NCBI RefSeq assembly: GCF_001463885.1
Contig: NZ_BBWQ01000001.1
Span: forward strand, 1 to 64,000
Source: Aureimonas altamirensis
GTDB taxonomy: Bacteria; Pseudomonadota; Alphaproteobacteria; Rhizobiales; Rhizobiaceae
DNA: 64,000 bases
Reading direction: 5' to 3'
The notes under the pieces were generated by a model. That model did no database searches. It saw only the letters and a program-made list of their open reading frames with translations, and was not told the DNA's origin. How positions within the stretch are numbered: the stretch's first letter is position 1; the number at the start of each line of letters is the position of its first letter. The translations under genes and the position numbers were made by a program. Positions 4,376 through 33,876 of the stretch are shown here, one piece after another.

Positions 4376-5518
4376 ATGAGTCTTCCGGAATTTTCCAAGG
4401 CATCCGCCCGCCTGGACGCCGCGATCGAAAAGGCGCTGGCCGAAAAGCGCATTGTCGGAGCTGTCGTTCTTGCCGCGCATGACGGCATCGTCATCCACCG
4501 TCGCGCTGCCGGCTACGCCAATCGCGAAACCCTGACCCCGATGCGCGAGAATGCGATCTTCCGGCTTGCCTCGGTGACCAAGCCCATCGTGACGGCCGCC
4601 GCCATGCGCCTGGTGGAAGACGGGCGGCTGGACCTCCACGCTCCCGTTACGACATGGCTGCCGGAGTTTCGCCCGGCCCTGCCGGACGGCACGCGGCCGC
4701 CAATCACGATCCACCAGTTGCTCACCCACACATCCGGCCTCGGCTATGGATTTCTCCAGCCGTCCGATGGACCGTATCAGAGGCTTAACGTTTCGGATGG
4801 CCTCGACCAGCCGGGCTTGTCGCTGCGGGAAAACCTGTCGCGTATCGGCGCGGCGCCGCTGGCCTTCGCCCCCGGCGCCGGCTGGCAATATTCCGTGGGG
4901 CTCGACGTTCTGGGCGGCATTCTGGAGCGGTTGGGCGGTCGAAGCCTTGCGGACATCGTTCGCGATACGGTGACGACCCCTCTTGGCCTAGCGGATACCG
5001 GTTTTTTCGTGAGCGATACGAGCCGGCTGACCGAAGCCTACGCCGACGGCAACCCCGAGCCGGTGCCGATGGCCGACGGAATGCAGGTGTCGCTTTTCGA
5101 CATGGCCGCGTTCTTTGCCCCATCCCGGATACTCGATCCTCGGTCGTACCCCTCGGGTGGCGCCGGCATGGCGGGGACGGCCGGAGATGTCCTGCGCTTT
5201 CTGGAAGCGATCCGCGCCGGCGGCGCACCGATCCTCGGCGCCGGAACGGTGGAGACGATGGCCACCGATCATGTCGGCATGGCCGCCGGGACACAGGGGC
5301 CGGGGTGGGGCTTCGGCTACGGATGGGCGGTGCTGGTGGACCCCGCGCCAACCGGCACGCCGCAAGCGCCCGGCACCCTGCAATGGGGTGGCGCCTATGG
5401 CCATAGCTGGTTTGTCGACCGGGCCAACCGCCTGACCGTCGTGGCCCTGACCAACACCGCCTTCGAGGGCATGTCGGGCGCGTTTCCTGCCGAGATCAGG
5501 AACGCGGTCTATGGCTAG
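4376..5518 (+). CDS. Serine hydrolase, class C beta-lactamase/EstB fold
   Basis: The 380-aa protein has the nucleophile motif S-x-x-K (SVTK, Ser66-Lys69) and the family HTSGL block near residue 118. The second motif is YSV (Tyr172) where beta-lactamases have YxN, and the third is YGHSW near residue 343 in place of a KTG triad. That combination fits the esterase/D-aminopeptidase branch, not a true beta-lactamase. No signal peptide is visible, which also argues for a cytoplasmic esterase. It is divergent from a TetR gene that probably controls it. The frame is open far upstream, but the ATG at 4376 gives the usual family length. Confidence 0.85.
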   Translation: MSLPEFSKASARLDAAIEKALAEKRIVGAVVLAAHDGIVIHRRAAGYANRETLTPMRENAIFRLASVTKPIVTAAAMRLVEDGRLDLHAPVTTWLPEFRPALPDGTRPPITIHQLLTHTSGLGYGFLQPSDGPYQRLNVSDGLDQPGLSLRENLSRIGAAPLAFAPGAGWQYSVGLDVLGGILERLGGRSLADIVRDTVTTPLGLADTGFFVSDTSRLTEAYADGNPEPVPMADGMQVSLFDMAAFFAPSRILDPRSYPSGGAGMAGTAGDVLRFLEAIRAGGAPILGAGTVETMATDHVGMAAGTQGPGWGFGYGWAVLVDPAPTGTPQAPGTLQWGGAYGHSWFVDRANRLTVVALTNTAFEGMSGAFPAEIRNAVYG

Positions 5519-5541
5519 GCAGCGCCGGGAGCCCTCCGCCC

Positions 5542-7801
<2,260 letters not shown>

Positions 7802-7814
7802 GCCGGGCTCGCGC

Positions 7815-7843
7815 TTGACGAAGTAAGGAAAATTTCTTACCTA
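7815..7843 (+). promoter_or_regulatory. prlF-yhaV promoter with palindromic operator
   Basis: A TTGACG -35 element (7815-7820) and a weak -10 (7838-7843) are separated by 17 bases. The spacer holds an imperfect palindrome, GTAAGGAAAATTTCTTAC (7823-7840, 7 of 9 pairs). Toxin-antitoxin operons are normally autorepressed through such a site, so this is a likely PrlF or PrlF-YhaV operator. Confidence 0.5.
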
Positions 7844-7867
7844 AAGCAGGAGTTGTCATGGGGGCCG

Positions 7868-8203
7868 ATGATGGGCGCGCTGCTGAGAGAAGAAAGCACG
7901 ATCACTGCCAAGGGCCAGACGACTGTTCCCAAAAGCGTCCGGCAGGCGTTGAATGTGGACTACGGTGGGCGCATCGCCTTCCTCGTGGACGAGCAGCGCC
8001 GGATCTATGTCGAGAAGGTAACGGAGGAGGCGAGCGATCCGGTCGTGGATCGTTTCCTTGAATTTCTGGCTCAAGACATGATCACGCACCCCGGCACATC
8101 CGTCGCTGCGCTGCCCGCCAGCCTGCGCGACCGCGTGGCCGCGCTTGTCGGCGACATGGAGGTTGACCTCGATGCCGAGATCGACGGGGATGTCGCGCTC
8201 TAG
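7868..8203 (+). CDS. prlF: PrlF (SohA) family antitoxin, AbrB-type
   Basis: This 111-aa protein has an N-terminal AbrB/MazE-type DNA-binding swapped-hairpin motif, ESTITAKGQTTVPKSVRQAL, which closely parallels E. coli PrlF, and an acidic C-terminus (VGDMEVDLDAEIDGDVAL) expected to bind the toxin. It neutralises YhaV and represses the operon. The start is ambiguous: the best-placed ribosome site (AGGAG, 7849-7853) serves an ATG at 7858 that is out of frame, so I chose the in-frame ATG at 7868, which gives the E. coli length. An in-frame TTG at 7853 is the other option. Confidence 0.88.
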   Translation: MMGALLREESTITAKGQTTVPKSVRQALNVDYGGRIAFLVDEQRRIYVEKVTEEASDPVVDRFLEFLAQDMITHPGTSVAALPASLRDRVAALVGDMEVDLDAEIDGDVAL

Positions 8204-8694
8204 TGCTGACGATCGATGGCTGGACCATTCTGGCACATCCGCTCTTTCTCGATCAGCTCGAAAAGCTGACCGACGCCGTCGAGGCGTTGAAGGAGAGGAA
8301 GCCCGAAGAATACCGAAAGAACGCCAGCACGAAGCTTCTGGCCGCGCTGAACAAGCTGATATTCCAGACAATTCCTGCCGATCCCACCGCGACCGTCTAT
8401 CGGCAGGGGTCCACGCTTGGCGCGGCGCATAAGCACTGGTTCCGCGCGAAGTTCGCCAATGGTCGATTCCGCCTGTTCTTCCGCTATGACACGACGGCGA
8501 AGATCGTCATCTTCGCCTGGGTGAATGATGAAACCACGTTGCGGACCTATGACGCGAAGACCGATGCCTACAGGGTCTTCAAAGGAATGCTGGAGCGCGG
8601 CAACCCGCCTGACGATTGGGAAGCGCTTCGCAAGGCCGCGTCCGACCAGGCGGCACGTAAGCGCCTGGAGAACGTCTCGCCTGCGAAGCGGTGA
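8203..8694 (+). CDS. yhaV: YhaV family ribonuclease toxin
   Basis: The 163-aa protein aligns by eye with E. coli YhaV: an N-terminal NGW/DGWTILAHP-like block, ASTKLLAALNKLI, FRAKFANGRFRLFFRYD, and the highly conserved WVNDETTLRTYDAKTDAY followed by VFKGMLERGNPPDDW. YhaV is a ribosome-dependent RelE-fold RNase that halts growth when PrlF is lost. Its GTG start shares one base with the prlF stop (TAGTG), so the two are translationally coupled. This chromosomal pair sits between dgdR and a catabolic cluster and may stabilise the accessory region. Confidence 0.93.
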   Translation: MLTIDGWTILAHPLFLDQLEKLTDAVEALKERKPEEYRKNASTKLLAALNKLIFQTIPADPTATVYRQGSTLGAAHKHWFRAKFANGRFRLFFRYDTTAKIVIFAWVNDETTLRTYDAKTDAYRVFKGMLERGNPPDDWEALRKAASDQAARKRLENVSPAKR

Positions 8695-8718
8695 CAAAGG
8701 CCAACAAGCGTTGCATCC

Positions 8719-10047
8719 CTAAAGCCAATGCTGGGCGCGAACCTCGCCGGGCTTCGCGAACCGGTCAATGCGGAAGGGCCGAGGATCGACCGCCGGGCTG
8801 GAGCCGGTCGCAAGATCGGCCAGGAGCCGCCCGGCGCCCGGCCCGATGCCGAAGCCATGGCCGGAGAAGCCTGTGCCGATGAAGAGGCCCGGTATCGCGT
8901 CGACCGGCGAGATGACCGGGATCGCATCCGGCATCGTGTCGATCATGCCGGCCCAGCTTTGCGCGACCTCGATCCCTTCCAGTCCGGGGATCGAGGCCCT
9001 GACATCGGCGACGATGCGGCGGATGGTTGCAGCGTCCGGCTCCGGGTCCAGGATGCGCACCGCTTCGAAAACGGATGGCCGGTCGGCCTCGCCCGGACGC
9101 CACTGGACCGCTTCTTCCAGAAAGCGCCGGTTCAGTTTCAGCTGAAGGTTTTTATGCTCCACCCGGAACGCCGGCAGGAACAGCCGCGCAAAGCGCAAGG
9201 AATCCGGTGTCAGGTCCACCTGACTGGACGCCGAGGTGGCGATGGTCAGCCCACCATCGAGGCGTTTGCGCAGGGCGAAGCGCGCGACGCTGATCGCTGA
9301 TGTCAGCGGGTAGCTCGTCGGACGGGTCCGCAGAACGTTGGAGCGGACCTTGAGCTGCGGAAGCTCGACGCCGAGCCCCTTGAGGAGAAGGCGGGACCAT
9401 GCCCCGCCCGCGACGACCACGGTGGAGCAGCGAACGCGCCCCTTTTCCGTGACGACAGCAACGACCCGGCCCGCAGCACGCTCGATGGTGCGCACCGCCA
9501 CGCCCTGATGGATCGTCGCGCCGGCGTCGAGCGCGGCCAGCGCCATGGCGGGAGCAGCCATTTGCGGTTCGGCCCGCCCGTCTTCCTGCGTCGACAGCGC
9601 GCCGGCGACCGGCACGCCATAGCCTGGCAGATGCGAGGTGAATTCCGCAGGCGACAGGATGCGGCTATCGATGCCGTGTTCGCGGGCATGAGCGGCCCAG
9701 CTCCGATGGCGTTCGACGTCGCGCTCCGTGCGCGATGCGTAGATGATGCCGGCCTTTCGGAAGCCCGTCTCCCGCCCGGTCCGGCGGTTCATGTCTTCCC
9801 ACTGCGCCATGCTGTCGACGATCAGCGGCAGCTCGCGCAGGTCGCGCCCCGTCCTGCGGCACCAGCCCCAGTTGCGGCTGGATTGCTCGGCGGCAATCGT
9901 GCCTTTCTCGAAAAGCGCGACACGGTGCCCGCGCTCGGCAAGCGTCAGCGCGGTCATGACCCCGATGATGCCGCCCCCGATCACGGCAATGTCGACCTCT
10001 TTCGGGATATCGGGAGAAGAGGGTACGGGCTCGACGGTCGGTCCCAT
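8719..10047 (-). CDS. FAD-dependent D-amino-acid oxidase family protein
   Basis: The 442-aa protein begins with a Rossmann FAD site (IAVIGGGIIGVMTALTLAERG, about residues 19-39) and ends with the DAO-family block GLFIGTGFSGHGFGIGPGAG. An SSRNWGWCRRTG segment near residue 60 and a C-terminal DTMPDAIPVISP stretch are typical of the large DadA/glycine-oxidase-like group. Such enzymes oxidise the C-N bond of amino acids or N-alkyl amino acids. It is transcribed with the IclR gene upstream of it on the same strand and faces away from the demethylase-transporter operon, so it probably belongs to the same pathway. Substrate is unknown. Confidence 0.85.
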   Translation of the reverse strand: MGPTVEPVPSSPDIPKEVDIAVIGGGIIGVMTALTLAERGHRVALFEKGTIAAEQSSRNWGWCRRTGRDLRELPLIVDSMAQWEDMNRRTGRETGFRKAGIIYASRTERDVERHRSWAAHAREHGIDSRILSPAEFTSHLPGYGVPVAGALSTQEDGRAEPQMAAPAMALAALDAGATIHQGVAVRTIERAAGRVVAVVTEKGRVRCSTVVVAGGAWSRLLLKGLGVELPQLKVRSNVLRTRPTSYPLTSAISVARFALRKRLDGGLTIATSASSQVDLTPDSLRFARLFLPAFRVEHKNLQLKLNRRFLEEAVQWRPGEADRPSVFEAVRILDPEPDAATIRRIVADVRASIPGLEGIEVAQSWAGMIDTMPDAIPVISPVDAIPGLFIGTGFSGHGFGIGPGAGRLLADLATGSSPAVDPRPFRIDRFAKPGEVRAQHWL

Positions 10048-19749: not shown

Positions 19750-20280
19750 CTAGCCGAAGGCCGCGATCACGGTTTCAATCGGCATAAACAGCGTTCTGCT
19801 GTCCGCCGGACATTCGGTGAACTCCGCGCAAGCCATGTAGAAGCGCTTCGCGTTGTCGTCCTTGGCTTGAACCAGTACTGCGCCGATGCCGATGCTTTGG
19901 GACGCAACCGCAATGCGGCGCAGGGCATCTGACAGGATGTCCGCACCGAGGCCATGACCCGCATAAGCGCGGCTGACCGCGAGGCGTCCGATCACCGAGA
20001 CAGGAATGACATCAGGCGCATTGCGCCGAACCTTGCCCGGCGCGGCCGCCCGTTCCACCGATCCGGCGGCTATGCAGAAATAGGCGGCCACCGCATTGCC
20101 GTCGCAGACGACATAGGTACGTGAAAATCGGCTTTCGTTCTTCAGCGCCCGATGCTTCAGCCACTCGTTCAGAACCGGCTCACCGCAATCGAAAGCCGTC
20201 AGGTCATGGTTCGCTGTCAGGGGAGCCGGGGCCGAGAGCTTCGTTTGCGAACGCGCGGGATCGGGGGTTACGTTTCCCAA
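19750..20280 (-). CDS. GNAT acetyltransferase toxin (TacT/AtaT type)
   Basis: The 176-aa protein has the hallmark opening of this toxin family, LSAPAPLTANHDLTAFDCGE, then LNEWLKHRALKNESRFSRTYVV, the acetyl-CoA loop YAGHGLGADIL, and the catalytic tyrosine in KRFYMACAEF. TacT/AtaT enzymes acetylate the amino group of charged tRNAs and stop translation. Its start overlaps the antitoxin stop by 13 bases, the standard arrangement. A later start inside the first 15 codons is possible. Confidence 0.92.
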   Translation of the reverse strand: MGNVTPDPARSQTKLSAPAPLTANHDLTAFDCGEPVLNEWLKHRALKNESRFSRTYVVCDGNAVAAYFCIAAGSVERAAAPGKVRRNAPDVIPVSVIGRLAVSRAYAGHGLGADILSDALRRIAVASQSIGIGAVLVQAKDDNAKRFYMACAEFTECPADSRTLFMPIETVIAAFG

Positions 20281-20609
20281 GCCGGAACTCGGCGCAACAG
20301 CGCGCGCAGCTTGGGTCCGGGCGCCGGGGGATTGTCGAGCGCATGGATGAAAGCGTCATACCTATCCGAATCCAGCACGAACAGGCGCTGATCCAGCAAC
20401 ACGTCGATCGCCAGAGATCGGGCGCTGTCGATCATGAACTCGGTGCGAGTCTTGCCAAGGATCGCCGCAGCATCGTCGATGAGCTGGCGCGTATGAGACT
20501 CGATGCGCAGATTGATGCTGCCCTTGGCTTCGGGCGACAAAGGACGCTCCGCAACCGCCACGGTCGCAGGACGCATATGGTCCGGAGAGGATGCGCGAGC
20601 CTTTATCAT
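20268..20609 (-). CDS. DUF1778 ribbon-helix-helix antitoxin (TacA/AtaR type)
   Basis: The 113-aa protein has a ribbon-helix-helix block, KGSINLRIESHTRQLIDDAA followed by ILGKTRTEFMIDSA, which is the DUF1778 signature, and a C-terminal tail (FVLDSDRYDAFIHALDNPP) that wraps the acetyltransferase. It neutralises the toxin at 19750 and should repress the operon through the repeat at 20623-20637. The ATG at 20609 has no ribosome site but lies about 8 bases after a predicted -10, which suggests a leaderless message; an ATG at 20576 is the alternative. Confidence 0.88.
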   Translation of the reverse strand: MIKARASSPDHMRPATVAVAERPLSPEAKGSINLRIESHTRQLIDDAAAILGKTRTEFMIDSARSLAIDVLLDQRLFVLDSDRYDAFIHALDNPPAPGPKLRALLRRVPAWET

Positions 20610-20616
20610 GGCCAAG

Positions 20617-20645
20617 AAAATGGTGGAGTGTATCCACAATGTCAA
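20617..20645 (-). promoter_or_regulatory. Toxin-antitoxin promoter with inverted-repeat operator
   Basis: On the minus strand a consensus -35 TTGACA (20645-20640) and a weak -10 CATTTT (20622-20617) are 17 bases apart. The spacer contains GTGGA-N5-TCCAC (20623-20637), a perfect 5-bp inverted repeat that fits a ribbon-helix-helix dimer. Repressor binding there would block RNA polymerase. Confidence 0.5.
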
Positions 20646-21052: not shown

Positions 21053-21289
21053 ATGTCAAAACCTCCGCATAAATCCCGATCCGCCTCGTTCACCAACCCC
21101 AGCCAAGCGGTTTCAAGCCCAAAGCGCCGCCGCCCGAAGCACGATGTGTCCACCTGGACGGTTACTGACGACTGGCCCGAAAAGGTGCCGATTACCGAAG
21201 CGGAAATCGAGATATTCGAGCGCTACTTCGGTGATGTCTTCGATGAGCTTTTCGGTTCGATCGATTCTATCGACAGGTCGAAGCCATGA
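21053..21289 (+). CDS. Small protein coupled to the serine recombinase (78 aa)
   Basis: I recognise no named family. The N-terminal 30 residues are basic and Ser/Pro-rich (KPPHKSRSASF, PKRRRPKHD), the C-terminal half is acidic and helical (ITEAEIEIFERYFGDVFDEL). That split suggests a DNA- or protein-binding adaptor. Its stop overlaps the recombinase start by 4 bases (ATGA), so the two are translated together. It could be a recombination directionality or accessory factor, but this is inference from position only. Confidence 0.7.
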   Translation: MSKPPHKSRSASFTNPSQAVSSPKRRRPKHDVSTWTVTDDWPEKVPITEAEIEIFERYFGDVFDELFGSIDSIDRSKP

Positions 21290-22833
21290 CCGTTGCAAGC
21301 AGCGGTGAGCCTCTGCGAGCCGCGCTTTATCTGCGCGTTTCCACGGCTCGGCAAGCTGAGCACCATGTCTCCATTCCCGATCAGCACAGACAGGGCGAAG
21401 CCTGGTGCGCCACGCATGGCTATGAGCTTGTCGAGACTTTCGCGGATGCTGGCGTCTCGGCAACCAGCGACCGCCGGCCCGAGTTCCAGCGTCTGATCGA
21501 AGCGGCGAGCGAACGGCCAGCCCCATTCGACATTATCCTCGTCCATTCCTTCAGCCGCTTCTTCCGCGACCATTTCGAGCTGGAGTTCCATATCCGGAAG
21601 CTGGCGCGCAATGGTGTGAAGCTGATCTCGATCACCCAGGAGGTCGGTGACGACCCCATGCAGGTCATGATGCGAAGGGTCATGACCCTGTTCGATGAGT
21701 ACCAGTCGAGGGAGAACGGCAAGCATACGCTCCGCGCCATGAAAGAGAACGCCCGCCAGGGCTTCTGGAACGGCTCGTTGCCGCCGATCGGATACCGCAT
21801 TGTCGAGGCCGAACGACGTGGGGCCAAGGTCAAGAAGACATTGGCCATCGATCCCATGCATGCCGATACGGTACGCCTGATCTATCGCCTGGCGCTATCA
21901 GGAGATGGAACCACCGGGCCGATGGGCGTGAAGGCGATTGTCGAATATCTCAACGACCGGAGGATATGCACCCGCGATGGTGGTCGCTGGGGCATCGGCC
22001 AAACCCACAAGATATTGACACGCACGACCTATGTTGGCCGACACCGGTTCAACATGCATGGCAAGGGCAAGACGCGCAAATCGGACGATGAGGTGATCAC
22101 AGTGGCCGTGCCGCCGTTGATCGAACAAGCCACTTTCGATGCGGTTCAGGCGCATCTGCGCGCCCGCAACCCAAAAGCCCTTGCACCACGTCTCGTCAAC
22201 AGCCCGAACATGCTGACCGGCCTGATGCACTGCGCGCAATGCGGAGGTCCCATGGTCATGCGCACCGGCAAGGCGGGGCGCTATCGCTATTATGTCTGTC
22301 AGAAGAAGGCGCGGACAGATACGTCCAGATGCAGCGGTATCGCAATTCCGATGGATGCGCTCGATACGCTGATCGCCGAGCATATGACAGCACGGCTGCT
22401 GGACCGAAAGCGCCTCAAGATCATCCTGATGCAAATCCTCCAACGCCGTTGGGAACAGCTAGAGCGTGACGGAAATGACCGGCTGGACGAATTGACCCGG
22501 CGTGGTGAGGAAGTGCGTCTGCGCCTGAAACGCCTTCTTAAGGCGATTGAGATGGGGGCGCTCAACCTCGGCGAACCAGCGTTGCAGGAGCGCTTGGCAT
22601 ATCTTCGAGCCTTGCAAACCCGAACGGCGAAAGAAATCAGAAGCCTTCAGGCTGAGCTGAATCACACTAGCACTCTGGCCATTTCACCCTCATTGCTACG
22701 CAGGATCATCAAGGCAGCAGAGCAACGCCTGCTGGAGCGGGGGCATGGTTTTCGTCGCAGCTACGTGTCCGTCTTAGCAAAGCAGATCGTTACTGAGGCG
22801 GGAAAAGTGCAGATTGTGCGTGCGAGACAATAG
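21286..22833 (+). CDS. Large serine recombinase
   Basis: The 515-aa protein has an N-terminal resolvase catalytic domain (about 10-160) with nucleophile Ser19 in LYLRVSTARQAE and the ISITQEVGDDPMQVMMRRVM region, then a Recombinase domain (about 185-290; GPMGVKAIVEYLNDRRI), a zinc ribbon with Cys316, Cys319, Cys338 and Cys349, and a long C-terminal coiled coil (about 385-460). This is the layout of phage- and island-type integrases. It is probably the enzyme that mobilised the accessory region. A short palindrome lies 58 bases past its stop. Confidence 0.95.
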   Translation: MTVASSGEPLRAALYLRVSTARQAEHHVSIPDQHRQGEAWCATHGYELVETFADAGVSATSDRRPEFQRLIEAASERPAPFDIILVHSFSRFFRDHFELEFHIRKLARNGVKLISITQEVGDDPMQVMMRRVMTLFDEYQSRENGKHTLRAMKENARQGFWNGSLPPIGYRIVEAERRGAKVKKTLAIDPMHADTVRLIYRLALSGDGTTGPMGVKAIVEYLNDRRICTRDGGRWGIGQTHKILTRTTYVGRHRFNMHGKGKTRKSDDEVITVAVPPLIEQATFDAVQAHLRARNPKALAPRLVNSPNMLTGLMHCAQCGGPMVMRTGKAGRYRYYVCQKKARTDTSRCSGIAIPMDALDTLIAEHMTARLLDRKRLKIILMQILQRRWEQLERDGNDRLDELTRRGEEVRLRLKRLLKAIEMGALNLGEPALQERLAYLRALQTRTAKEIRSLQAELNHTSTLAISPSLLRRIIKAAEQRLLERGHGFRRSYVSVLAKQIVTEAGKVQIVRARQ

Positions 22834-23039: not shown

Positions 23040-24041
23040 ATGCTGAAGCGACTGGCCGATAATCTGGAACAACTCGATCTCGCCCTCGAACATCTCTCGA
23101 ATGGGGATGCGAACAACGCGCGATTTGCGCTGATGCTGACAGATAACGCGGTCGAACTGACACTACACCAGATCGCCCTTCAGTATTCCGGCCGGCGGCA
23201 GAGCTGGATGCGCGATAGCAAGCTTGAGTTCGAGCGCGAATTGAACGCCGCTCTCGGGCGCCACTTTGATGCCAAGGTGAAACTGGCCAGGCTGCTCGGT
23301 CATCTGCCCGGCGCCGTTAGCGAAACCGTCACGACCGTCCACGGTTATCGGAACGAAGTTTATCATGTCGGTCTCGAACATGAGGAAATCCTGCCGGCGC
23401 TCAGCCGGTTTTACTTCTCGGTCGCATGCGATGTGCTGGCCAGTTTCAAGCCGATGGGCATCGGCTGGAGCTCCAATCAAAAACTCCCCGAGCGGGCAAA
23501 GAAGTATTTCTCCGGGAAAGACCGTTTCATGCCCGGTACGCGGGAAGAGTATTACGAAGCCTGCCGCAGGCTGAAGGATCAGGTTGCCAACGGGCACGGC
23601 TTGCTGGTTACGGCCCTTGCCGGCCATATGGAGCGCGTGATCGACGAAACCGACGGATACATCGAATACCTAAAGGGCGGCTACCCGCGGGACAAGCAAC
23701 CGACCCGCAATGAGATACTGGTCGAGTGTCAGGCGTGGCCGATCACGTTCAGCGACGACGGCAAGGCTTTTGTCCGGTCAAATCCGCCGCCTGAAAAGAA
23801 CATTCATGGAATCGTGCAATGGGTCGGTGCGCAATATCCGAACCTCATTCGGACAGATCCGGTGCCATCCTGGCGGAAACGGCTAGAGGCAGTCCGCCGC
23901 GAACGGGATGCCCATAGCGCCCTGAAAAAATACCAAAGTTTCATGGATCAGACCGCACAGCTTCGCGACTGGATCGGGGAATCCACGGCCGCGCTGGATG
24001 CGCATGTGGAAGAACAGATCGACCGGATGCGCGGCAAATAG
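23040..24041 (+). CDS. HEPN-like protein, putative RNase of the defence cluster
   Basis: The 333-aa protein is mostly helical. Residues 20-110 show features of a HEPN domain: a helix with LMLTDNAVELTLHQIAL and then the catalytic-type motif R-N-x-x-x-H, here Arg104-Asn105 to His109 (RNEVYH), preceded by VTTVHGY. HEPN domains are metal-independent RNases common in toxins and antiviral systems. The C-terminal 200 residues match nothing I know and include a Trp-rich segment and a terminal helix. It precedes the helicase gene by 76 bases in the same direction. HEPN assignment rests on one motif and helical pattern; a non-catalytic HEPN is possible. Confidence 0.7.
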   Translation: MLKRLADNLEQLDLALEHLSNGDANNARFALMLTDNAVELTLHQIALQYSGRRQSWMRDSKLEFERELNAALGRHFDAKVKLARLLGHLPGAVSETVTTVHGYRNEVYHVGLEHEEILPALSRFYFSVACDVLASFKPMGIGWSSNQKLPERAKKYFSGKDRFMPGTREEYYEACRRLKDQVANGHGLLVTALAGHMERVIDETDGYIEYLKGGYPRDKQPTRNEILVECQAWPITFSDDGKAFVRSNPPPEKNIHGIVQWVGAQYPNLIRTDPVPSWRKRLEAVRRERDAHSALKKYQSFMDQTAQLRDWIGESTAALDAHVEEQIDRMRGK

Positions 24042-24117
24042 CCAACTACTTAATTGTTTGATTTGCTGACGAATTTTGTGCCAGACTTTCACGAAACGAA
24101 ACGAAACAAGCGTGCGT

Positions 24118-27100
24118 ATGTCCTCCCGGCCATTGTTACAAAAAGGGATAGCCGAGCTCGAAAAGCTCTTCGATCAGAACCGCGATGATCCGCAGTTTCT
24201 GAAAACGCTGATCGCCGAATTGTCCGAACGGACGGTGCCGAGGGCGAAAGATTTGGAACGAAGGGCGCTTCAGGCCGCGTCCGTCCGTCGCGAACCACCC
24301 AAAGCAGAAGCAGAAAGCCATGCCGTGCGCGAGCCGCGCATGCGGGTCGCGGCATTTTCGCCGGCGACCGCCACATCTCTGCCCGAACCGCCTGTTCGCC
24401 CGGCCGAGCCCATCAAGGAACCGCCGATCCGGGAGCCGGTTCGCCCAGCCCCGGAGCCACCGCCTGTCACAAATAAGGCGACGGATATTCTTGGCGCGTG
24501 GACGGCGATGGAGGTGTTGTCACCCCCATCATTTCGCAAGCCCGAAGACCTGGCCGGCGGAGACCGCTCCCGTATCGCGCCGCTGGACAAGGGTAAGCTG
24601 CCCTGGGAGGGCGACGGCGAGCGGAGCCGCCCCAACCAGAAGCTCTATTACCAGATCGTTCTTGGCACCATCGACATGGAGACGGCGGTCTCATCGCTGC
24701 TCCAGGTTTATGCCGACAGCCGGATCGAAAAACCTTCGGCACGGGGAGAAGCCGTGCTGGCTACGATAATGGTCGACCGTGAGGGTAGGCCGGTGGAGAC
24801 CGATGCTGTCGCGATCTCCAGCTTCGGCTGGGGTGTTCCCGTGTCGTTGACCGGGAAGCTGCGCGATCTTGGAACCTGGTCGCAGGCGGAACAGCGGCTG
24901 GTCGAGCAGCTCGAAAAAAAGATCGTTTCCGAAGACAAGGACGGCAAGCCGTTACCGCTGACGGCAAAGGCGATCGATGCCGCCTATCGGTGGCTGGTGG
25001 AAACACTCGGGCTCGATGCGCATTTTGCAAAACAGCCCATCTTCGCGGTCCGCTCCTACCAGTATTTCAAACTCCAAGACCCGCCTGAATCGATCCTGCT
25101 GAACTCGTTCTTCCTTGAGGACCTTGCCAGTGCCGCCGCCCTGACCGGCAACGGCAAGAGCACGGTGAACCTCAACCGCTATCTCGGCACGACAAAACCC
25201 AAGACGCGGCGGAATCTGATGAAGGACAATCAGGCCCTCGCGGAAGCACTGGAGCCTGGAAAATTCCCGCTTGGCGCGTGGCCCGGCAGCGGACGCCACC
25301 CGCTGGTCATGCTCCAGCAATGCGCCATCAATCTTGCCATGAAGGACCTGACATCGGACGGCATACTGGCCGTCAACGGACCTCCCGGAACCGGCAAGAC
25401 GACGCTCTTGCGTGACATCGTGGCGGCGATCGTCACGAAGCGCGCGGAGCTTCTTTGCAAGTTCGACGACCCGGAAGACGCTTTCGTGCCGTCGGGCCAG
25501 AAGCTGAAACGGGGCAACGCCTTCATCCATCTCTACAAGCTGGATGAAAGACTGCGCGGCCACGAAATCATCGTCGCCTCGTCGAACAACAAGGCCGTCG
25601 AGAATGTCAGCGCGGAACTGCCCGGCATGGGTGCCATCGCGGACGATGCGACGGGCCTGCGTTACTTCAAAACGGTTTCGGACGCGCTTCTGGAGCGCGA
25701 TAGCTGGGGCGTGATCGCGGCGGTGCTCGGCAATGCCAGAAACCGGAGCGATTTCCGCCAGACATTCTGGTGGGACGATGATGTCGGCTTCCAGCGCTAT
25801 TTGCAGCAGGCGAGCGGCAATCCGCAATTGATCACCGAGAAAACCGAAAACGGAACACGGCAACGCCCTCCTGTCATCGTCGAACAGGAGAACGCGCCGG
25901 AAGACCATGACGAAGCGCTGAAACGTTGGCGCAAGGCGCGGCAGAGATTTACGAAGACATTGGCCGAAGCGAAAACCGCGCTCGCCAATCTGCAAGCCAT
26001 CCGTGACCTGTTGATCGCGATCGCGAAAACCCAGGCAGGCATCGTCAGGATCGACGCTGAGATTGCCTCGCGCCAGCCTGCGCTGACGCAGGCAGAGCAG
26101 ACGGCCCATGATGCCGCCTCGCTCCAGGAGGACCAGGAAAAACTGGTTCTGGCGCTGAATCAGAATGCCTCCAGCGCAATGCATTCCAGGCCCGGATTCT
26201 GGAGCCGCCTTTTCGAGACGTCGGCCTTTCGCGCCTGGCAGGCCGAGCACGGCGTATTGCTCGCAAGGCTCAAGGAGGCGAAGACCCGCTTAACCTCGTT
26301 GAAGGCTGACGCCGATGCCACCGCGGCCGCATATTCCCGGCTAAAGGCAGTGGCCGACGATATGCAGAAAATAAGATCGGGTTTGCTCGCAACGCTTGAG
26401 CGCGATCAGGCGCGCTATGCCTCGCTCTCGAAGCAATATTCCGGCATTTACATTTGGGAAGAGTTTTTCGAAAAACGGCACGCCGACAAGCAAAAGGCGG
26501 CGCCGTGGCTTGATGAGAAGACGGCAAGGCTGCGTCACGACGTGTTCGAGGCCGCGATGGAATTGCATCGCGCCTTTATCGATGCCGCGGCGAGACCTGT
26601 ACGGCACAATCTGAATGCCCTGATGGACGGGTTCGGCGTCCGCTCGCTCGGGAACGCCGAACGGGATGCGCTGATCCCGCATCTATGGTCGACCCTGTTC
26701 CTTCTGGTGCCCGTAGTATCCACGACCTTCGCGTCCGTCTCCCGCATGTTCGGCAGGATCGACCCTGAGGAGTTCGGCTGGCTCCTCGTCGATGAGGCCG
26801 GGCAGGCTTTGCCGCAGGCGGCCGTCGGGGCTCTCATGAGAACGAGGCGCGCCGTCGTGGTGGGCGATCCGATCCAGATCGAGCCCGTGGTTGTCCTGCC
26901 CGATCAGTTGACGGAAGCGATGTGTCATCAATTCGGGATCGATCCATTGATCTACAATCCGCCCGGCGCATCGGCGCAGACCCTGGCGGACAGCGCGACC
27001 GAATATTTCGGCACTTTCGAAACGAAGTTCGGCACCCGGGAAGTCGGTGTTCCGCTCCTGGTTCACCGGCGTTGCGATGATCCGATGTTCTCGATTTCGA

Positions 27101-27627
27101 ACATGATCGCCTATGAAAACCTCATGGTGCAGGCGAAGATGGCCAAAGCCTCAGCTATCCGGGATATTCTCGGTCCGTCGCGCTGGATCGACGTCGAAGG
27201 GCGCGGGCAGGAAAAGTGGTGCCAGCAGGAAGGCGAAGCGCTGCTGGGGCTGCTGTGGCAGCTTCGGGACAAAGAAATCGCTCCGGACTTCTACATCGTG
27301 ACACCATTTGTGGTCGTGCAGGACCGGATGCGGGAAATGTTGCGTACCAGCGGCCTGCTGGATGGCTGGGTCGAAAACCCCTTCGCCTGGGTCTATGAGC
27401 GCGTGGGCACCGTCCATACGGTACAGGGCCGCGAGGCCGAAGCGGTGTTCTTCCTTCTCGGGGCGCCAAGCGCCGAGCAGCGCGGAGCACGCTGCTGGGC
27501 CGGAGGGCGGCCGAACCTTCTGAACGTCGCCGTGACGCGCGCGAAAGAATCCGTCTATGTCATCGGCAACCGGTCGCTATGGAAGAGCGCGGGCGTATTC
27601 CAGTCACTGGATGATTTTCTAAGATAA
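24118..27627 (+). CDS. SF1 (Upf1/Dna2-like) helicase of the defence cluster
   Basis: The 1,169-aa protein has a Pro-rich linker (about 60-125), a region of unknown fold, then an SF1 helicase core: Walker A GPPGTGKT (421-428), DEAG box 892-895 in WLLVDEAGQALPQAAVGAL, the motif GDPIQIEPVV, VHTVQGREAEAVF (1099-1111) and NVAVTRAKESVYVIG (1136-1150). Between motifs I and II lies an insert of more than 400 residues that is largely coiled coil (about 590-780). The start at 24118 is chosen as the first ATG; ribosome site is weak. It is followed by the NACHT gene after 3 bases. It probably unwinds nucleic acid for the associated effectors. Confidence 0.88.
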   Translation: MSSRPLLQKGIAELEKLFDQNRDDPQFLKTLIAELSERTVPRAKDLERRALQAASVRREPPKAEAESHAVREPRMRVAAFSPATATSLPEPPVRPAEPIKEPPIREPVRPAPEPPPVTNKATDILGAWTAMEVLSPPSFRKPEDLAGGDRSRIAPLDKGKLPWEGDGERSRPNQKLYYQIVLGTIDMETAVSSLLQVYADSRIEKPSARGEAVLATIMVDREGRPVETDAVAISSFGWGVPVSLTGKLRDLGTWSQAEQRLVEQLEKKIVSEDKDGKPLPLTAKAIDAAYRWLVETLGLDAHFAKQPIFAVRSYQYFKLQDPPESILLNSFFLEDLASAAALTGNGKSTVNLNRYLGTTKPKTRRNLMKDNQALAEALEPGKFPLGAWPGSGRHPLVMLQQCAINLAMKDLTSDGILAVNGPPGTGKTTLLRDIVAAIVTKRAELLCKFDDPEDAFVPSGQKLKRGNAFIHLYKLDERLRGHEIIVASSNNKAVENVSAELPGMGAIADDATGLRYFKTVSDALLERDSWGVIAAVLGNARNRSDFRQTFWWDDDVGFQRYLQQASGNPQLITEKTENGTRQRPPVIVEQENAPEDHDEALKRWRKARQRFTKTLAEAKTALANLQAIRDLLIAIAKTQAGIVRIDAEIASRQPALTQAEQTAHDAASLQEDQEKLVLALNQNASSAMHSRPGFWSRLFETSAFRAWQAEHGVLLARLKEAKTRLTSLKADADATAAAYSRLKAVADDMQKIRSGLLATLERDQARYASLSKQYSGIYIWEEFFEKRHADKQKAAPWLDEKTARLRHDVFEAAMELHRAFIDAAARPVRHNLNALMDGFGVRSLGNAERDALIPHLWSTLFLLVPVVSTTFASVSRMFGRIDPEEFGWLLVDEAGQALPQAAVGALMRTRRAVVVGDPIQIEPVVVLPDQLTEAMCHQFGIDPLIYNPPGASAQTLADSATEYFGTFETKFGTREVGVPLLVHRRCDDPMFSISNMIAYENLMVQAKMAKASAIRDILGPSRWIDVEGRGQEKWCQQEGEALLGLLWQLRDKEIAPDFYIVTPFVVVQDRMREMLRTSGLLDGWVENPFAWVYERVGTVHTVQGREAEAVFFLLGAPSAEQRGARCWAGGRPNLLNVAVTRAKESVYVIGNRSLWKSAGVFQSLDDFLR

Positions 27628-27630
27628 TCC

Positions 27631-30600
27631 ATGAAAAACGCGAAGAAGGAAAATAAAGAAACGGCCCCGCTGGATTCAGCAAAAGCTGAAACGCGAGCCG
27701 GCGGAGCAGCGACGGCTTCAGGCATGAATTTTCAGGCCGCCGTCACTGCCGTTGCGGTCATCCACCTGGCCCGTGGCACGCCGGTTGGCTGGCTGGATGG
27801 ATTGGCGAACGATGTTCCTGTTGCGGTTCTGGCTGAGACGGCTGGCGCAGGTGACGATATCCAGATCGAATGCATCGGCGGCGAGATCGTAGAGGCACAG
27901 ATTAAGCGGGGATTGTCAGTTGGCAGCCGATTGTGGGAGCCGCTCATTGCGCTCTCACGGGCAATATCCGCCAATGAAATCAGCTTCGGCGTGCTGGTCG
28001 TCTGCCCGGTAAGCAGTCAGACCGTAGGGACCCAACTCGCGCAGGATATTGTCAGGCTGGGCTCCGGCGCCAGCGACCGTCTTTCACAGACGGGAGCCAA
28101 ATTTGTTGCCAAGCTTAGAGAGAACAGCCTCGACGCTCAGACGGTATGCAAGCGGCTTCGTATCGTCCGAATGCATTGCCTGAGAAACGACGACGCTTCC
28201 GTCAAAGCCGCGCAGGCGGAACTCGCTCATATCTGCGCCCGCAAAGACCAGGTTCAACAATCATGGGATCGATTGTACCGGGACGCTCATTCCCTGATTG
28301 AAATGAGAGGCCGGAGAACCGCAGTATCAGTGTTGCAGGTTCTGCGATCAGCGGCAATCGAGGTTGCAAGCCCGTCAAAAGCAGGTCCGGTCACAGAAAT
28401 CGAGGCATTAACGAAGTGGCTTCTTTCGACGACGGGTGAATTCTTCGTGGTCGGCTCCGATACCTCGCTTTCGCTCGACACAGACTGGATAAAAGTCAGC
28501 GTACAGGTTTCTGACAAAGAGGTTGCGAGTGATCGGGATTTGGCCAAGGCTCTCGAAGAGTACCATGCTTGGTATGAAAAGGACCCACCCGGAAACAGAC
28601 GGTCACTGATCGAGCCAGATACGCTGGGATTATTCTATCCTCATTGCGTGATCGTTGGCGGGCCCGGCATGGGCAAGAGTCTCTTGCTGAAGCGCCTCGC
28701 ACGCGAATACGCAAAGAGATCTCACCCCGTTTTGAGGATCAGTCTTCCGGCTTTGTATGCTCGTATGAAGCACCATGGCAGTGGATTCGAGGAGGGCCTG
28801 TTCTCTCTGGGGCTCGACAATTCCGGACTGTCGGTGGCGGGCTTGGAACGCAGAGGACAGAACTGGGTCCTGATATGCGATAGCCTCGATGAATGCGGCC
28901 ATGACCAGGAGATCGTGACCGACGGGCTGCTCAAATTTGCGGCCAGCAATCCTGGATGCAAGATAGTCGTAGCGACCCGTCCAGTCGGCTATCGCCGGTC
29001 ATTGCTGGGCAAATGGCGACACTACGAGCTGCTCCCGCTTGAAACGAATTTTGTGCCTGAGCACCTAGCTACTTTGATTTCTGGCCTGTTTAGCGGCGAT
29101 AAGCAAAAGGCCGATCCTGCCATCAAGTTCGCGCGCAGCCAGATTGAAAACAATGATACGGCCAAACTAGTCGCCAGGAGTCCTCTGCTCCTGAGCATGA
29201 TTGCGACTCTCGCTGCAAACGGCACATCGATCGGCACAACAAAATCGCGCCTCTATCAAAGTTTCTTTGAACTGATCGACACGGCCTCGGCTCGAAAGCC
29301 GGCCAACGCCACCGTCACACGTCCCGTGCTCGATAGATTTCTCCAAGCCGCCGCCTGGACGATCCTGACGGAGACGCTGCCGTCCAGTTCCGCGGTGATT
29401 GATGCGGCGGCGGCCGTGCTGATGTCGGAATTGCAATGCTCGTCATTGAAAGCGAAGTCGACCGCAGCGGATTGCCTAACCTATTGGCAACAGGTCGGCC
29501 TGCTTGAACTGGTATCGCACGCCAGCGCCGAGACCATCACGTTCATTCACAGGTCATTTGCCGAGTTTGCGGCGGCCGGTTTTTTAGGCACCCTCCCCAA
29601 AGCGGAATGTACGAGGGAAATCGGGTGCAAGATCGATCAGCCGCCATGGCAAGAGGTTTTGAACTTCGCCGCCTCCGGCGGGCTAGTAAACGAGATCATT
29701 GATGCATGCGATCTCGCGAACATAGAGTCGCTAAAACGGGCGCTCTCGCTTGCAGCGGATTCGGATGCAGAAGTTTCGCATAGCCGACTAAAGCTTCTGG
29801 TCGATCGTGGATTTGATCACGTCAAGGGAGAACGGCGAGACCAGGCGCACGCGGTCGGGTCGCTGTTGGAACGAACAAGCAGACGGTATCCGGAGGCAGT
29901 ACGGGACACGGCAAGCTCCTTTATCAACGCAAGCCGGCCCTGGACGCGTTTGGTGGCATGGGCGTGTCTTGTCAATTGCGGAAGCGATGCCATCGACTTT
30001 AACGCCCTGACCGATGCCTTGCTTCAGTTGCCGAAATCGGTGGAACTGCAATCGTGGAATTCGCTCGGCGGATTCAGGCTGGTAAAGGACGACGGTCATG
30101 AATTGCTTGCGTCGTTGATCCTGGCAGGTTGCCGTATCGTTCTGGAGCGCTGCTCCCCGGAGGAAAGCGATCGGATCGTACCTGAAATTCTATCGGCCAA
30201 GGATCTCCACACGCTTGGCTTTTACCAGCGGATCGAGCCTCTCTTACGGGAGTTCGGGAAAGATTACGATATCGGAGGAAGCCGCTCAGCGTTCTCGCAA
30301 GGGCTGGGTTGGAACACCGAGGGATACAATGAGGCGTGGGACGCCTTTTTCCACCATCTGTTCATGATTATCGGTGAAGCCGGCAAGGCGACGGACGTGA
30401 CGCCTGTGAGGGATTTAGAGGATCTTCCTTATGTCAGCGCATTCTTGCAGATGACATCGTTTTGGGAGTTGCCCGCGAGCAATGTTTGGGCTTGGGCTCG
30501 GGAATTCGACCGAGATGCTGTCAGGGAGGTCGTTGCCGGAGCTTTGAAATGCAGCGGCGTGCCTGAAGACTTGATCGCACGCGATGCCAGCCGGTTTACG

Positions 30601-31686
30601 GCGGCGCAGCCATTGGCTGAGAGAGGTACTGGTAGAATAACCGCCTTCGGTCATCTACCGACTGTCGATGTTTGGGAGATCGACTACACGAAGGTGGATG
30701 CGGCTATCCTTGACCTTAGAAAACTGGAAGCCGCGCTGTACCATCGTTGCGAGTGGACCATTCAGGTCGCGGTGAACCTGTTGATCCGGAAAGCTGACAG
30801 TGCGGCGCGCCGGGGTATTGTCGAGAGAGTTCTAAAGAACGGCAGGGGGATTACGCTGTGGGCGGCAGCAGCCATTGCAGAAAGTTTGGAAGTCGGGAGC
30901 CGCGTTGAAATTCTAGGCGAGCGCTTGCGCCAACCGTTGTGTAGCGGATGCGAATACGTGATGTCGGCGCTAGAAGACGACCTCGCTGCCGGCAACGAGG
31001 CATACGACCTCCTCCGTCATTGTTTGATGGCTGATGATGTGTCCGTGGCTGTTGAGGCTGCGAAAGCCGCATTGCGATTGTCGGATACGGCAGGTGACGA
31101 CCTCATGGCTGTTCTGTCGTCTGCTTATGAATTCTGGCTTGAACACGAGGAGCCTTATCCAAAGGGTGGCGGCACTGTTCCTCGCAGCCCAAGGCCAACC
31201 TTGCTCCAGGCTATACAAAAGACAGAGCCGGTTTCAGACAGTAAGCTATTCGAACTTATCGCAGATGATCGCTCCGACGTTCGCGACCTTGCTGAAAAAT
31301 GGCTCATCGGCCGCATGGCCATAGCGGATGAAGTTCGCACTGACTTTCTGGGTGGTCTTGAGCGCGCTGGTGTAAAGCCAAGATTTCTTACCGCTGCGCT
31401 TCGCGAGAATGTCCCTTTCTCCGGCGCGCAATTGACCCGTATTCGCAGCTTGCTGAACGATCCCAATGCTGAAATGCGGTATGCCGCAATGGGCGTTCTT
31501 CTCGAAACCTATCTCGCGACAGAAGACATAATAGCCCACGCGTCAGCGCTGGTGAGTGATAGCGAACAGGATATCCGGGATCGGGCTCATCGCATCAGGC
31601 ATAAACATTCCAAGGCTGCAGCCGAGGGAACAACGGCAAGACCACGACCACCTATTGCCGCGCGGACTACGTTCGACGAAGCATAG
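27631..31686 (+). CDS. Nuclease-NACHT-HEAT protein (STAND NTPase)
   Basis: The 1,351-aa protein has three parts. Residues 30-130 look like a Cap4/DUF4297 or Mrr-type nuclease: SGMNFQAAVTAVAVIHLA, then Asp75-Asp76 and the Q-x-K motif in VEAQIKRG (Gln90, Lys92). Residues about 335-640 are a NACHT NTPase: Walker A GGPGMGKS (343-350), Walker B ICDSLDEC (Asp417 to Glu421), VVATRPVGYRR sensor, and SPLLLSMIATLA. The remaining half is helical with HEAT-like units, clearest at the C-terminus (DVRDLAEKWLIGRM; MRYAAMGVLLETYL). This matches Avs/bNACHT-type immune receptors in plan. Codon and base composition look less GC-rich than neighbouring core genes. Confidence 0.87.
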   Translation: MKNAKKENKETAPLDSAKAETRAGGAATASGMNFQAAVTAVAVIHLARGTPVGWLDGLANDVPVAVLAETAGAGDDIQIECIGGEIVEAQIKRGLSVGSRLWEPLIALSRAISANEISFGVLVVCPVSSQTVGTQLAQDIVRLGSGASDRLSQTGAKFVAKLRENSLDAQTVCKRLRIVRMHCLRNDDASVKAAQAELAHICARKDQVQQSWDRLYRDAHSLIEMRGRRTAVSVLQVLRSAAIEVASPSKAGPVTEIEALTKWLLSTTGEFFVVGSDTSLSLDTDWIKVSVQVSDKEVASDRDLAKALEEYHAWYEKDPPGNRRSLIEPDTLGLFYPHCVIVGGPGMGKSLLLKRLAREYAKRSHPVLRISLPALYARMKHHGSGFEEGLFSLGLDNSGLSVAGLERRGQNWVLICDSLDECGHDQEIVTDGLLKFAASNPGCKIVVATRPVGYRRSLLGKWRHYELLPLETNFVPEHLATLISGLFSGDKQKADPAIKFARSQIENNDTAKLVARSPLLLSMIATLAANGTSIGTTKSRLYQSFFELIDTASARKPANATVTRPVLDRFLQAAAWTILTETLPSSSAVIDAAAAVLMSELQCSSLKAKSTAADCLTYWQQVGLLELVSHASAETITFIHRSFAEFAAAGFLGTLPKAECTREIGCKIDQPPWQEVLNFAASGGLVNEIIDACDLANIESLKRALSLAADSDAEVSHSRLKLLVDRGFDHVKGERRDQAHAVGSLLERTSRRYPEAVRDTASSFINASRPWTRLVAWACLVNCGSDAIDFNALTDALLQLPKSVELQSWNSLGGFRLVKDDGHELLASLILAGCRIVLERCSPEESDRIVPEILSAKDLHTLGFYQRIEPLLREFGKDYDIGGSRSAFSQGLGWNTEGYNEAWDAFFHHLFMIIGEAGKATDVTPVRDLEDLPYVSAFLQMTSFWELPASNVWAWAREFDRDAVREVVAGALKCSGVPEDLIARDASRFTAAQPLAERGTGRITAFGHLPTVDVWEIDYTKVDAAILDLRKLEAALYHRCEWTIQVAVNLLIRKADSAARRGIVERVLKNGRGITLWAAAAIAESLEVGSRVEILGERLRQPLCSGCEYVMSALEDDLAAGNEAYDLLRHCLMADDVSVAVEAAKAALRLSDTAGDDLMAVLSSAYEFWLEHEEPYPKGGGTVPRSPRPTLLQAIQKTEPVSDSKLFELIADDRSDVRDLAEKWLIGRMAIADEVRTDFLGGLERAGVKPRFLTAALRENVPFSGAQLTRIRSLLNDPNAEMRYAAMGVLLETYLATEDIIAHASALVSDSEQDIRDRAHRIRHKHSKAAAEGTTARPRPPIAARTTFDEA

Positions 31687-31687
31687 T

Positions 31688-33493
31688 ATGCCGACATGCC
31701 CTCCAATTCAGCCGACTGTCGTCATTGCCGACGATCCATTTCTGGCCGCTCGGCTGTCATGCGCCCTGTCGCGAAGTAAGACCTACCTTACTGTCCTCGA
31801 TGGACCGCGCATGACCCGACCAGATCATGCATCTGAAGTGACGCGACGAAACAATGCTATTGCCCGTGTTCAACCCGATCGTACGCTCCTTGCTGGCCTG
31901 CCCAACGAGGGCCGTAAGTCAATGATGGCCGCGCTACCCCGCGATCATACAGAAGTCGTGGTCGATGAAGATGTTGCAGCTTTGATCGTCGACCGCAAAA
32001 TCCGCGACAACGCCCCCCTGCAGTGGGGCAAGGAGGCGATCGGTCTAGGACTGCTTCGGGCTCTTTACGAGCGCCGCATAATCGAATTTGGCGACCATCC
32101 CTCACCGACTAATTCCGTCAAACCCCACTCAGATCATCTCGTTATCTGCGAAGTGAGCGAACCGCTCTCCGAAGTGATTGCCGCGAACTATGCCTACTCG
32201 ATGGGGGCTGGCCTGCACCTCATCAGTGAAACAGACGAAGCAGAATGCAAAGATCTTCTGGAGTCCTACTATGGTATCTACGAGCCGGGCGTCGATCAGG
32301 AGGCCGTGCGCAGCCGCCTGCAAGAACGGCTGCGCGGGCTTTGCGGCAAGTTCGATCTGCCAGTCCGTGGTTCGCTAACCTTTATCACTAGGTGGCTTCC
32401 TTTTGGGGTCGCGTTCCCCGAACTGCCTTCGACCCATCTCTTTGTATATCCCGATCTCGGTATCTCCATTGTTAACGGTTTTGCAGCGGAGCAACGAGGC
32501 ACGCGCGGCACAAACGTGGCTGTCCTAGTCGACCCAGGAAAGGTACGAGCCCCCGAGATGGAAGCCGCAGCCAAAGTCTTACCTCCGCGCGGGATATTCG
32601 TACGCGGCTACAGCGGCAACGGTGCCACCGTCCGCAACGTCACCGAGATGGTCGATCACTTTCCTTATGATCTCCTGATCTTTGCAACCCATTGTGGCGA
32701 CGCCGACGGTTGGCGCTGGACCTACCAGTACAAAGACAGCGAAGGCATCGACCGGACTCTCGTTGTCGAGATCGCCATCGGCGTCGCAAGTACCAACGAT
32801 CCCGAGATGCTGCAGGTAATGCAGTACGTGCGGTTTGTTTCGCTTGATGGTGTCGACTGGAACGACCCGATCGCCAAGAAGGACCTCTATGTCGGCACTG
32901 CAATTATAGATTATACGAACCGAGAACGCGATGATCCTAATTGGGAACCTGTCCACAGAGAGGAGATTCCGCGCGTCATCGGGTCGGCTGCTATGGCGAT
33001 GGCGGATAACAATTACATCGCTATGCCGCGTTCACTCGCTTGCGAGGGTAGCCCCATAATTGTCAATAATGCATGCGTTTCTTGGCACGAACTCGCCGGA
33101 CGCTTCATGTTCACCAATGCGCGCGCGTATATCGGTACGCTTATGCCTGTCGCTGATCTTGAGGCCGAGGCGATTGTCGTGCGGTTACTCGACAAGCATT
33201 TCGGCAAACCCTTATGTCATGCTGTTTGGTCGGCACAGAACGCGACCTACGGTACAAAAAGTAACCGCCGTCCCTATGTCGTCACGGGCGTCTATCCGCA
33301 GGGATTAAGGACAACTCTCGAGGATGCTCCTCGCCGCATCCTTGATAGGCTCATCGACGCAGCAAGGCATTGGCAGCGTAGCTTGGATCGGGTGCGGGGC
33401 GACGAGCGCCTGGAAAGGGACATTCGCGCGATCCTTGCCTATCATGAACGTGAGATACAGGCGTTCCGCAAGCGTTGGGTCCGGGCAGACTAA
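31688..33493 (+). CDS. CHAT/caspase-like protease of the defence cluster
   Basis: The 601-aa protein has a C-terminal caspase-like region (about 290-545). The putative dyad is His335 in DLLIFATHCGDADG and Cys463 in PIIVNNACVSWHELAG, each after a hydrophobic strand as in CHAT peptidases; the following ARAYIGTLMPVADLEA is the typical CHAT strand-loop. The N-terminal half (1-280) is of unknown fold and may be the sensor or substrate-binding part. It starts 1 base after the NACHT stop, so translation is coupled. The likely role is proteolytic activation of a partner, possibly another product of this cluster; that is inference. Confidence 0.8.
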   Translation: MPTCPPIQPTVVIADDPFLAARLSCALSRSKTYLTVLDGPRMTRPDHASEVTRRNNAIARVQPDRTLLAGLPNEGRKSMMAALPRDHTEVVVDEDVAALIVDRKIRDNAPLQWGKEAIGLGLLRALYERRIIEFGDHPSPTNSVKPHSDHLVICEVSEPLSEVIAANYAYSMGAGLHLISETDEAECKDLLESYYGIYEPGVDQEAVRSRLQERLRGLCGKFDLPVRGSLTFITRWLPFGVAFPELPSTHLFVYPDLGISIVNGFAAEQRGTRGTNVAVLVDPGKVRAPEMEAAAKVLPPRGIFVRGYSGNGATVRNVTEMVDHFPYDLLIFATHCGDADGWRWTYQYKDSEGIDRTLVVEIAIGVASTNDPEMLQVMQYVRFVSLDGVDWNDPIAKKDLYVGTAIIDYTNRERDDPNWEPVHREEIPRVIGSAAMAMADNNYIAMPRSLACEGSPIIVNNACVSWHELAGRFMFTNARAYIGTLMPVADLEAEAIVVRLLDKHFGKPLCHAVWSAQNATYGTKSNRRPYVVTGVYPQGLRTTLEDAPRRILDRLIDAARHWQRSLDRVRGDERLERDIRAILAYHEREIQAFRKRWVRAD

Positions 33494-33786: not shown

Positions 33787-33876
33787 TGGCGGAGGGAGGG
33801 GGATTCGAACCCCCGATACGGTCTCCCGTATACACACTTTCCAGGCGTGCGCCTTCAACCACTCGGCCACCCCTCC
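33787..33876 (-). tRNA. tRNA-Ser (anticodon GGA)
   Basis: Read on the minus strand, the 90-base gene begins GGAGGGGTGGCCGAGTGG and ends with an encoded CCA at 33789-33787. The 7-bp acceptor stem closes with one G-T pair, the T-loop is GGTTCGAATCC, the anticodon loop is CTGGAAA with anticodon GGA, and a long variable arm (TACGGGAGACCGTA) marks a serine tRNA. It decodes UCC/UCU. It borders the accessory island, a common integration position, but I found no second copy of its 3' end in the window. Confidence 0.96.

Follow-up and report, generated by a model that had tools for sequence, protein, structure and literature searches.

The 64,000-nucleotide stretch of Aureimonas altamirensis DNA analysed here (positions 1 to 64,000 of contig NZ_BBWQ01000001.1, hereafter the window) harbours four same-strand genes, at 23040..33493, for a HEPN-type protein, a helicase, a nuclease-NACHT protein and a CHAT-type protein. 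The locus is best read as an island in which defence genes of familiar types are gathered, and the single four-gene immune system which the original prediction proposed for it is unsupported. The reading favoured here, with a probability of roughly 0.6, is that of a defence island at a tRNA-Ser(GGA) integration hotspot, in which at least three separable units (the HEPN gene, the helicase together with the nuclease-NACHT gene, and a solo CHAT gene) lie beside a serine recombinase. The observations behind this reading are the domains and motifs of the products, the conservation of their catalytic residues, the separate occurrence of the families in the opened loci, the helicase-NACHT arrangement (seen again in one other genome, and as a relic in a further one), and the changing content of the site. 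The features of the locus are as follows.

21286..22833, plus strand: large serine recombinase P0005, the left flank (Resolvase, Recombinase and Zn_ribbon_recom above the Pfam cut-offs)
23040..24041, plus strand: HEPN-type protein P0001, predicted RNase, 333 amino acids (Rx4H motif in relatives)
24118..27627, plus strand: SF1 helicase P0002, 1169 amino acids from an ATG start (AAA_11 and AAA_12 above the Pfam cut-off)
27631..31686, plus strand: P0003, N-terminal PD-(D/E)XK nuclease and NACHT protein, 1351 amino acids (Pfam NACHT at 3.1e-9, nuclease motif)
31688..33493, plus strand: CHAT-type predicted protease P0004, 601 amino acids (H335/C463, Pfam CHAT in relatives)
33787..33876, minus strand: tRNA-Ser(GGA), the right edge of the variable region (ARAGORN)

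The layout itself agreed with the original prediction: all four open reading frames (ORFs) are present on the plus strand between the recombinase and the tRNA gene, the re-measured gaps between genes two, three and four are again 3 and 1 bases, and R104/H109, K349, H335 and C463 all stand at the positions given. The HEPN and helicase genes are separated by 76 bases. The longest ORF in the P0002 frame begins at TTG 24076, and that of P0004 in the ORF list at GTG 31556, within the NACHT gene. The G+C content, measured in 2-kb windows, is 0.56-0.61 across 22-34 kb, compared with 0.60-0.70 in most of the remaining window.

The co-occurrence of the four families was followed in 44 opened loci of relatives (12 for HEPN, 14 for the helicase, 13 for NACHT and 5 for CHAT), each of which was queried with the four proteins by tblastn (E 1e-3). 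For most loci the flanks extended no further than about 8-10 kb, and contig ends cut L028 and L034 upstream of the NACHT gene, L030 downstream of it, and one flank of the CHAT gene in L036, L039 and L060. Of the plasmid records, 12 of 22 were opened for HEPN and 14 of 641 for the helicase; the opened loci are thus samples, and a rare four-gene set may exist elsewhere. Only the helicase and NACHT families were found fully paired, in intact form in L026 and as a decayed relic in L031; three or four families together were encountered in none of the 44 loci. The idea that all four genes make up one immune system draws on their common strand, their short gaps and the defence-type domains or motifs throughout; however, in addition to this lack of any locus with three or four families, the HEPN gene lies 76 bases from the helicase and its relatives stand without the other families in all 12 opened loci, bar one short nuclease-region match. 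One system of four genes is hence highly improbable. The key motifs of the original prediction are conserved among homologues, and it is the co-occurrence of the families that proved rare; the domains assigned earlier mostly hold up, and a role in defence is plausible.

In the case of the HEPN protein, H101, R104, N105, Y108 and H109 are invariant across eight aligned sequences of the P0001 family, so that R104 and H109 of the HEPN-like R-x4-H motif noted earlier are kept in all eight. This agrees with the Rx4-6H motif described in the available text of PMC3710099. As judged from its motif, P0001 is probably an RNase; it probably acts on its own. Relatives of P0001 were found in 22 plasmid records, and the 12 loci opened contain no relative of the helicase or of the CHAT protein by tblastn; in L063 alone, 65 residues of the P0003 nuclease region find a weak match some 4 kb away from the HEPN gene. 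In three rhizobial plasmids (L003, L004 and L064) the HEPN gene is preceded by a gene of ∼240 amino acids with a zeta-toxin gene upstream, and a DUF982 gene follows in L003, L004 and L061. It is possible that these genes represent a different partner set of the P0001-type HEPN family.

The NACHT domain of P0003 was detected by Pfam (3.1e-9, 37.3 bits against a cut-off of 26.7), which gave no nuclease match for this protein. In its N-terminal part, D75, D76, Q90 and K92 are invariant in the alignment of P0003 with its 13 relatives (14 sequences), and position 88 is occupied by E, once by D; read as sequence, D75, D76, E/D88, Q90 and K92 conform to the PD-(D/E)XK nuclease pattern. The Walker A residue K349 and the Walker B residue D417 are kept in 13 of the 14, the exception (L032) being without the NACHT part. 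The proposed fusion of a nuclease to NACHT is supported, for NACHT by Pfam and for the nuclease by its conserved motif and the PADLOC match to PDC-M54A given below. The 13 relatives comprise one on a plasmid and 12 in genome contigs; three partial plasmid matches to NACHT (H24-H26, 17-26% covered) were left unopened. The NACHT tree was built without L030 and L032, both of which are in the 14-row alignment; in the tree, the window row still included the gap signs of the alignment (shown as 1382).

Some relatives of P0003 and their neighbours deserve a mention of their own. The Brevundimonas protein of L032 (9007-10854, 615 amino acids) has the N-terminal nuclease part in common with P0003 and nothing else, and a Pirin match follows it; this suggests a modular nuclease part, unless the gene is a chance fusion. 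In L025, a protein of 1474 amino acids with a Pfam NACHT C-terminal domain (NCAB2) is encoded at 4445-8869, directly upstream of the NACHT relative. To the left of the Rhizobium leguminosarum NACHT gene (L002, 4074-8163) are ORFs of 749 and 387 amino acids which by eye look like a defence set of the ubiquitin-like conjugation type, and an ORF of 177 amino acids without a Pfam match lies directly upstream of that NACHT gene.

P0002 carries AAA_11 and AAA_12 above the Pfam cut-off, which confirms the SF1 helicase core ascribed to gene two. In L026, from Eilatimonas milleporae, a helicase of the P0002 type (41% identical) stops 15 bases before the NACHT gene. The closest NACHT relative, that of Rhodopseudomonas pentothenatexigens (L031), is 80% identical to the one of the window, and ∼110 bases upstream of it align to the last codons of the window helicase with breaks in the frame, as expected of a relic. 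For the other NACHT genes, the 600 bases upstream yielded matches at chance level only in a sensitive search (best E 0.11, L029); the UvrD-type helicase located 254 bases upstream of the NACHT gene in L029 belongs to another family and was not counted as a pair. Among 13 NACHT relatives, a P0002-type helicase thus directly precedes NACHT once intact and once as a relic, and neither HEPN nor CHAT relatives were found in these 13 loci.

These counts bear on a second explanation, according to which the four are independent defence genes and the adjacency of helicase and NACHT is due to chance in a crowded island. Helicase relatives, taken from 641 plasmid records, are without any of the other three families by tblastn in all 14 opened loci, NACHT included, and 12 of the 13 NACHT relatives lack an intact P0002-type helicase. 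In the helicase tree, P0002 groups with a solo gene of Rhizobium gallicum (100/99) and the Eilatimonas helicase with solo genes of Agrobacterium and Klebsiella (100/100); the tree gave long-branch warnings, and L015 and L056 were left out of it. Against chance speaks that helicase and NACHT directly adjoin on one strand in two distant lineages (3 bases apart in the window, 15 in L026), and the relic in addition. Since L031 and the window share recent ancestry, as the 80% identity of their NACHT proteins indicates, these are two cases of the pair and not three. As the paired helicases fall into separate subclades together with solo genes, the pair must have either formed twice or been broken often. 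On balance, full independence of the four genes seems unlikely, and the helicase and the nuclease-NACHT protein are plausible, if thinly sampled, partners.

The CHAT assignment of P0004 draws on its relatives. H335 and C463 are invariant in P0004 and its five relatives (L036, L038, L039, L054 and L060), and Pfam CHAT is above its cut-off in two of these six members, L036 (27.9) and L039 (25.8); it is below in L054 (16.7) and gives no match at E 0.05 in L038 and L060. Hence the His-Cys dyad of the original prediction stands, whereas P0004 itself has no Pfam CHAT match even at E 1, where one unrelated family only was found. In the structure model of P0004, the predicted local distance difference test score (pLDDT) is below 50 over most of the CHAT part. 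The His-Cys pair suggests that P0004 is a protease, which probably acts on its own. No HEPN, helicase or NACHT relative was detected by tblastn in any of the five CHAT loci. Three of the five relatives (L038, L039 and L054) are on IMG/VR viral contigs, and the L060 gene lies 364 bases from a tRNA-Ser(GGA), on a contig which also encodes a serine recombinase only distantly similar to P0005 (25% identity). The family is rare in the samples searched: it was found in its own genome only among 385 genomes of the class and 398 of the phylum, and in its own and one other among 394 genomes of the family and 201 relatives, these samples overlapping one another.

The DNA similarity between the window and L031 spans the NACHT gene and stops at 31646, ∼40 bases before the start codon of the CHAT gene at 31688. 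Near the end of the NACHT gene, the window and L031 differ in length by one base, which makes the NACHT protein of the window the longer of the two by 28 residues and places its stop codon beside the CHAT start. A join of two segments explains the break in similarity before CHAT, and a loss of CHAT in L031 would look identical. The one-base gap between NACHT and CHAT also speaks for a lineage-specific system of three genes (helicase, nuclease-NACHT and CHAT), in which a CHAT gene captured behind NACHT became coupled to it. Nuclease-protease pairs have been repeatedly acquired by immune systems, in that case with a trypsin-like protease, according to the available text of PMC12799240. Nevertheless, NACHT and CHAT occur together in none of the 13 NACHT and 5 CHAT relatives (some of these loci being cut by contig ends), and the similarity to L031 halts just before CHAT, which makes such a system very unlikely. 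Equally hard to credit is a composite version, in which the helicase would pass a nucleic-acid cue to the DNase-NACHT switch, a translationally coupled CHAT protein from a mobile element would add a proteolytic arm, and modules would be swapped at the tRNA-Ser hotspot.

At the right border of the variable region, similarity to two genomes of the same genus resumes at the tRNA-Ser gene (33787 in G1075, 33771 in G1469). G1075 encodes a recombinase 56% identical to P0005, its similarity ends 117 bases from the same tRNA-Ser, and none of the four genes was found within the 19.9 kb covered. In G1469, the tRNA gene and the DNA matching the first 7.8 kb of the window are ∼8 kb apart, with different DNA in between. 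The tRNA-Ser locus acts like a hotspot whose cargo changes. With G1469 as the reference, the variable region (7800-33771 of the window) may start near 7.8 kb, and the island may extend beyond the four genes. To the left of the recombinase, two adjoining minus-strand ORFs (19750-20645) by eye resemble an acetyltransferase toxin and its antitoxin.

Several points weigh against an island of at least three units. The gaps of 3 and 1 bases resemble those of a single operon, and the defence activity of all four genes is one that we infer. The pair is thin, with one intact case and one relic in 13 NACHT relatives and none in 14 helicase loci, and both paired helicases lie in different subclades that also hold solo genes. 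In addition, the end of similarity to L031 could reflect a loss of CHAT there instead. If the island is nonetheless built as favoured here, P0003 would most likely work in a bNACHT25-like manner, to judge by the order of its domains and by a published protein of like kind: the C-terminal part would sense a phage cue, the NACHT module would then assemble with ATP, and the N-terminal nuclease would cut DNA and halt the infected cell. The helicase would most likely support P0003 by sensing or handling nucleic acid, while the HEPN protein, by its motif, may serve as an RNase and the CHAT protein, by its His-Cys pair, as a protease, probably each independently. In a broader sense, the locus illustrates that an operon-like string of defence-type genes can be built at a tRNA hotspot from separately occurring units, and that such strings are a trap for discovery based on gene neighbourhood. 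Two elements are worth keeping: the pair of helicase and nuclease-NACHT, and the CHAT family found on viral contigs or beside tRNA-Ser, which Pfam and PADLOC detect weakly or not at all.

As for known systems, P0001 resembles HEPN RNases in its Rx4H motif, the N after the R and an upstream acidic residue (as given in the available text of PMC3710099), and differs from them in that none of the eight family members, P0001 included, matches Pfam HEPN and that a profile search of the PDB with the family gave no match and no solved relative. P0004 is reminiscent of Borvo and of the type III-E TPR-CHAT protein, for which Pfam CHAT is listed in the available part of PMC10952713, by its CHAT-type His-Cys pair and by Pfam CHAT in its relatives; it differs in standing alone in the opened loci and in that neither it nor three relatives scanned matched a PADLOC family at the limits used (the presence of a Borvo model in that library was unchecked). 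PADLOC gave partial matches for the two genes in between. P0002 shares a common SF1 helicase core with the Mokosh helicases MkoA and MkoC and matches MkoC across its helicase part (3.6e-66, 222 bits). Mokosh type II is a helicase fused to a PLD-like nuclease, the PLD being reported in the available part of PMC10952713; in contrast, the match of P0002 to MkoC ends at profile position 949 of 1136 (residue 1157 of 1169), and no PLD family is among the 25 of 26 Pfam matches listed, so that P0002 was rejected as a Mokosh type II protein. The N-terminus of P0003 matches that of the PADLOC candidate PDC-M54A (5.5e-11), and part of the NCBIfam family EruA is matched as well (1.3e-9, 36.8 bits against a cut-off of 1000 bits), the likeness to both being confined to these partial matches. 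A parallel in kind is provided by bNACHT25 and bNACHT32 of clade 6, in which an N-terminal PD-(D/E)XK DNase precedes the NACHT module and, in bNACHT25, degrades DNA on phage sensing (PMC12169576, available text); the word helicase is absent from that paper, which mentions no such partner for either protein. The likeness is one of domain order, and at this level P0003 has the features of a bNACHT protein, namely a NACHT module in which both Walker motifs (A and B) are present and a predicted N-terminal PD-(D/E)XK effector of the clade 6 type.
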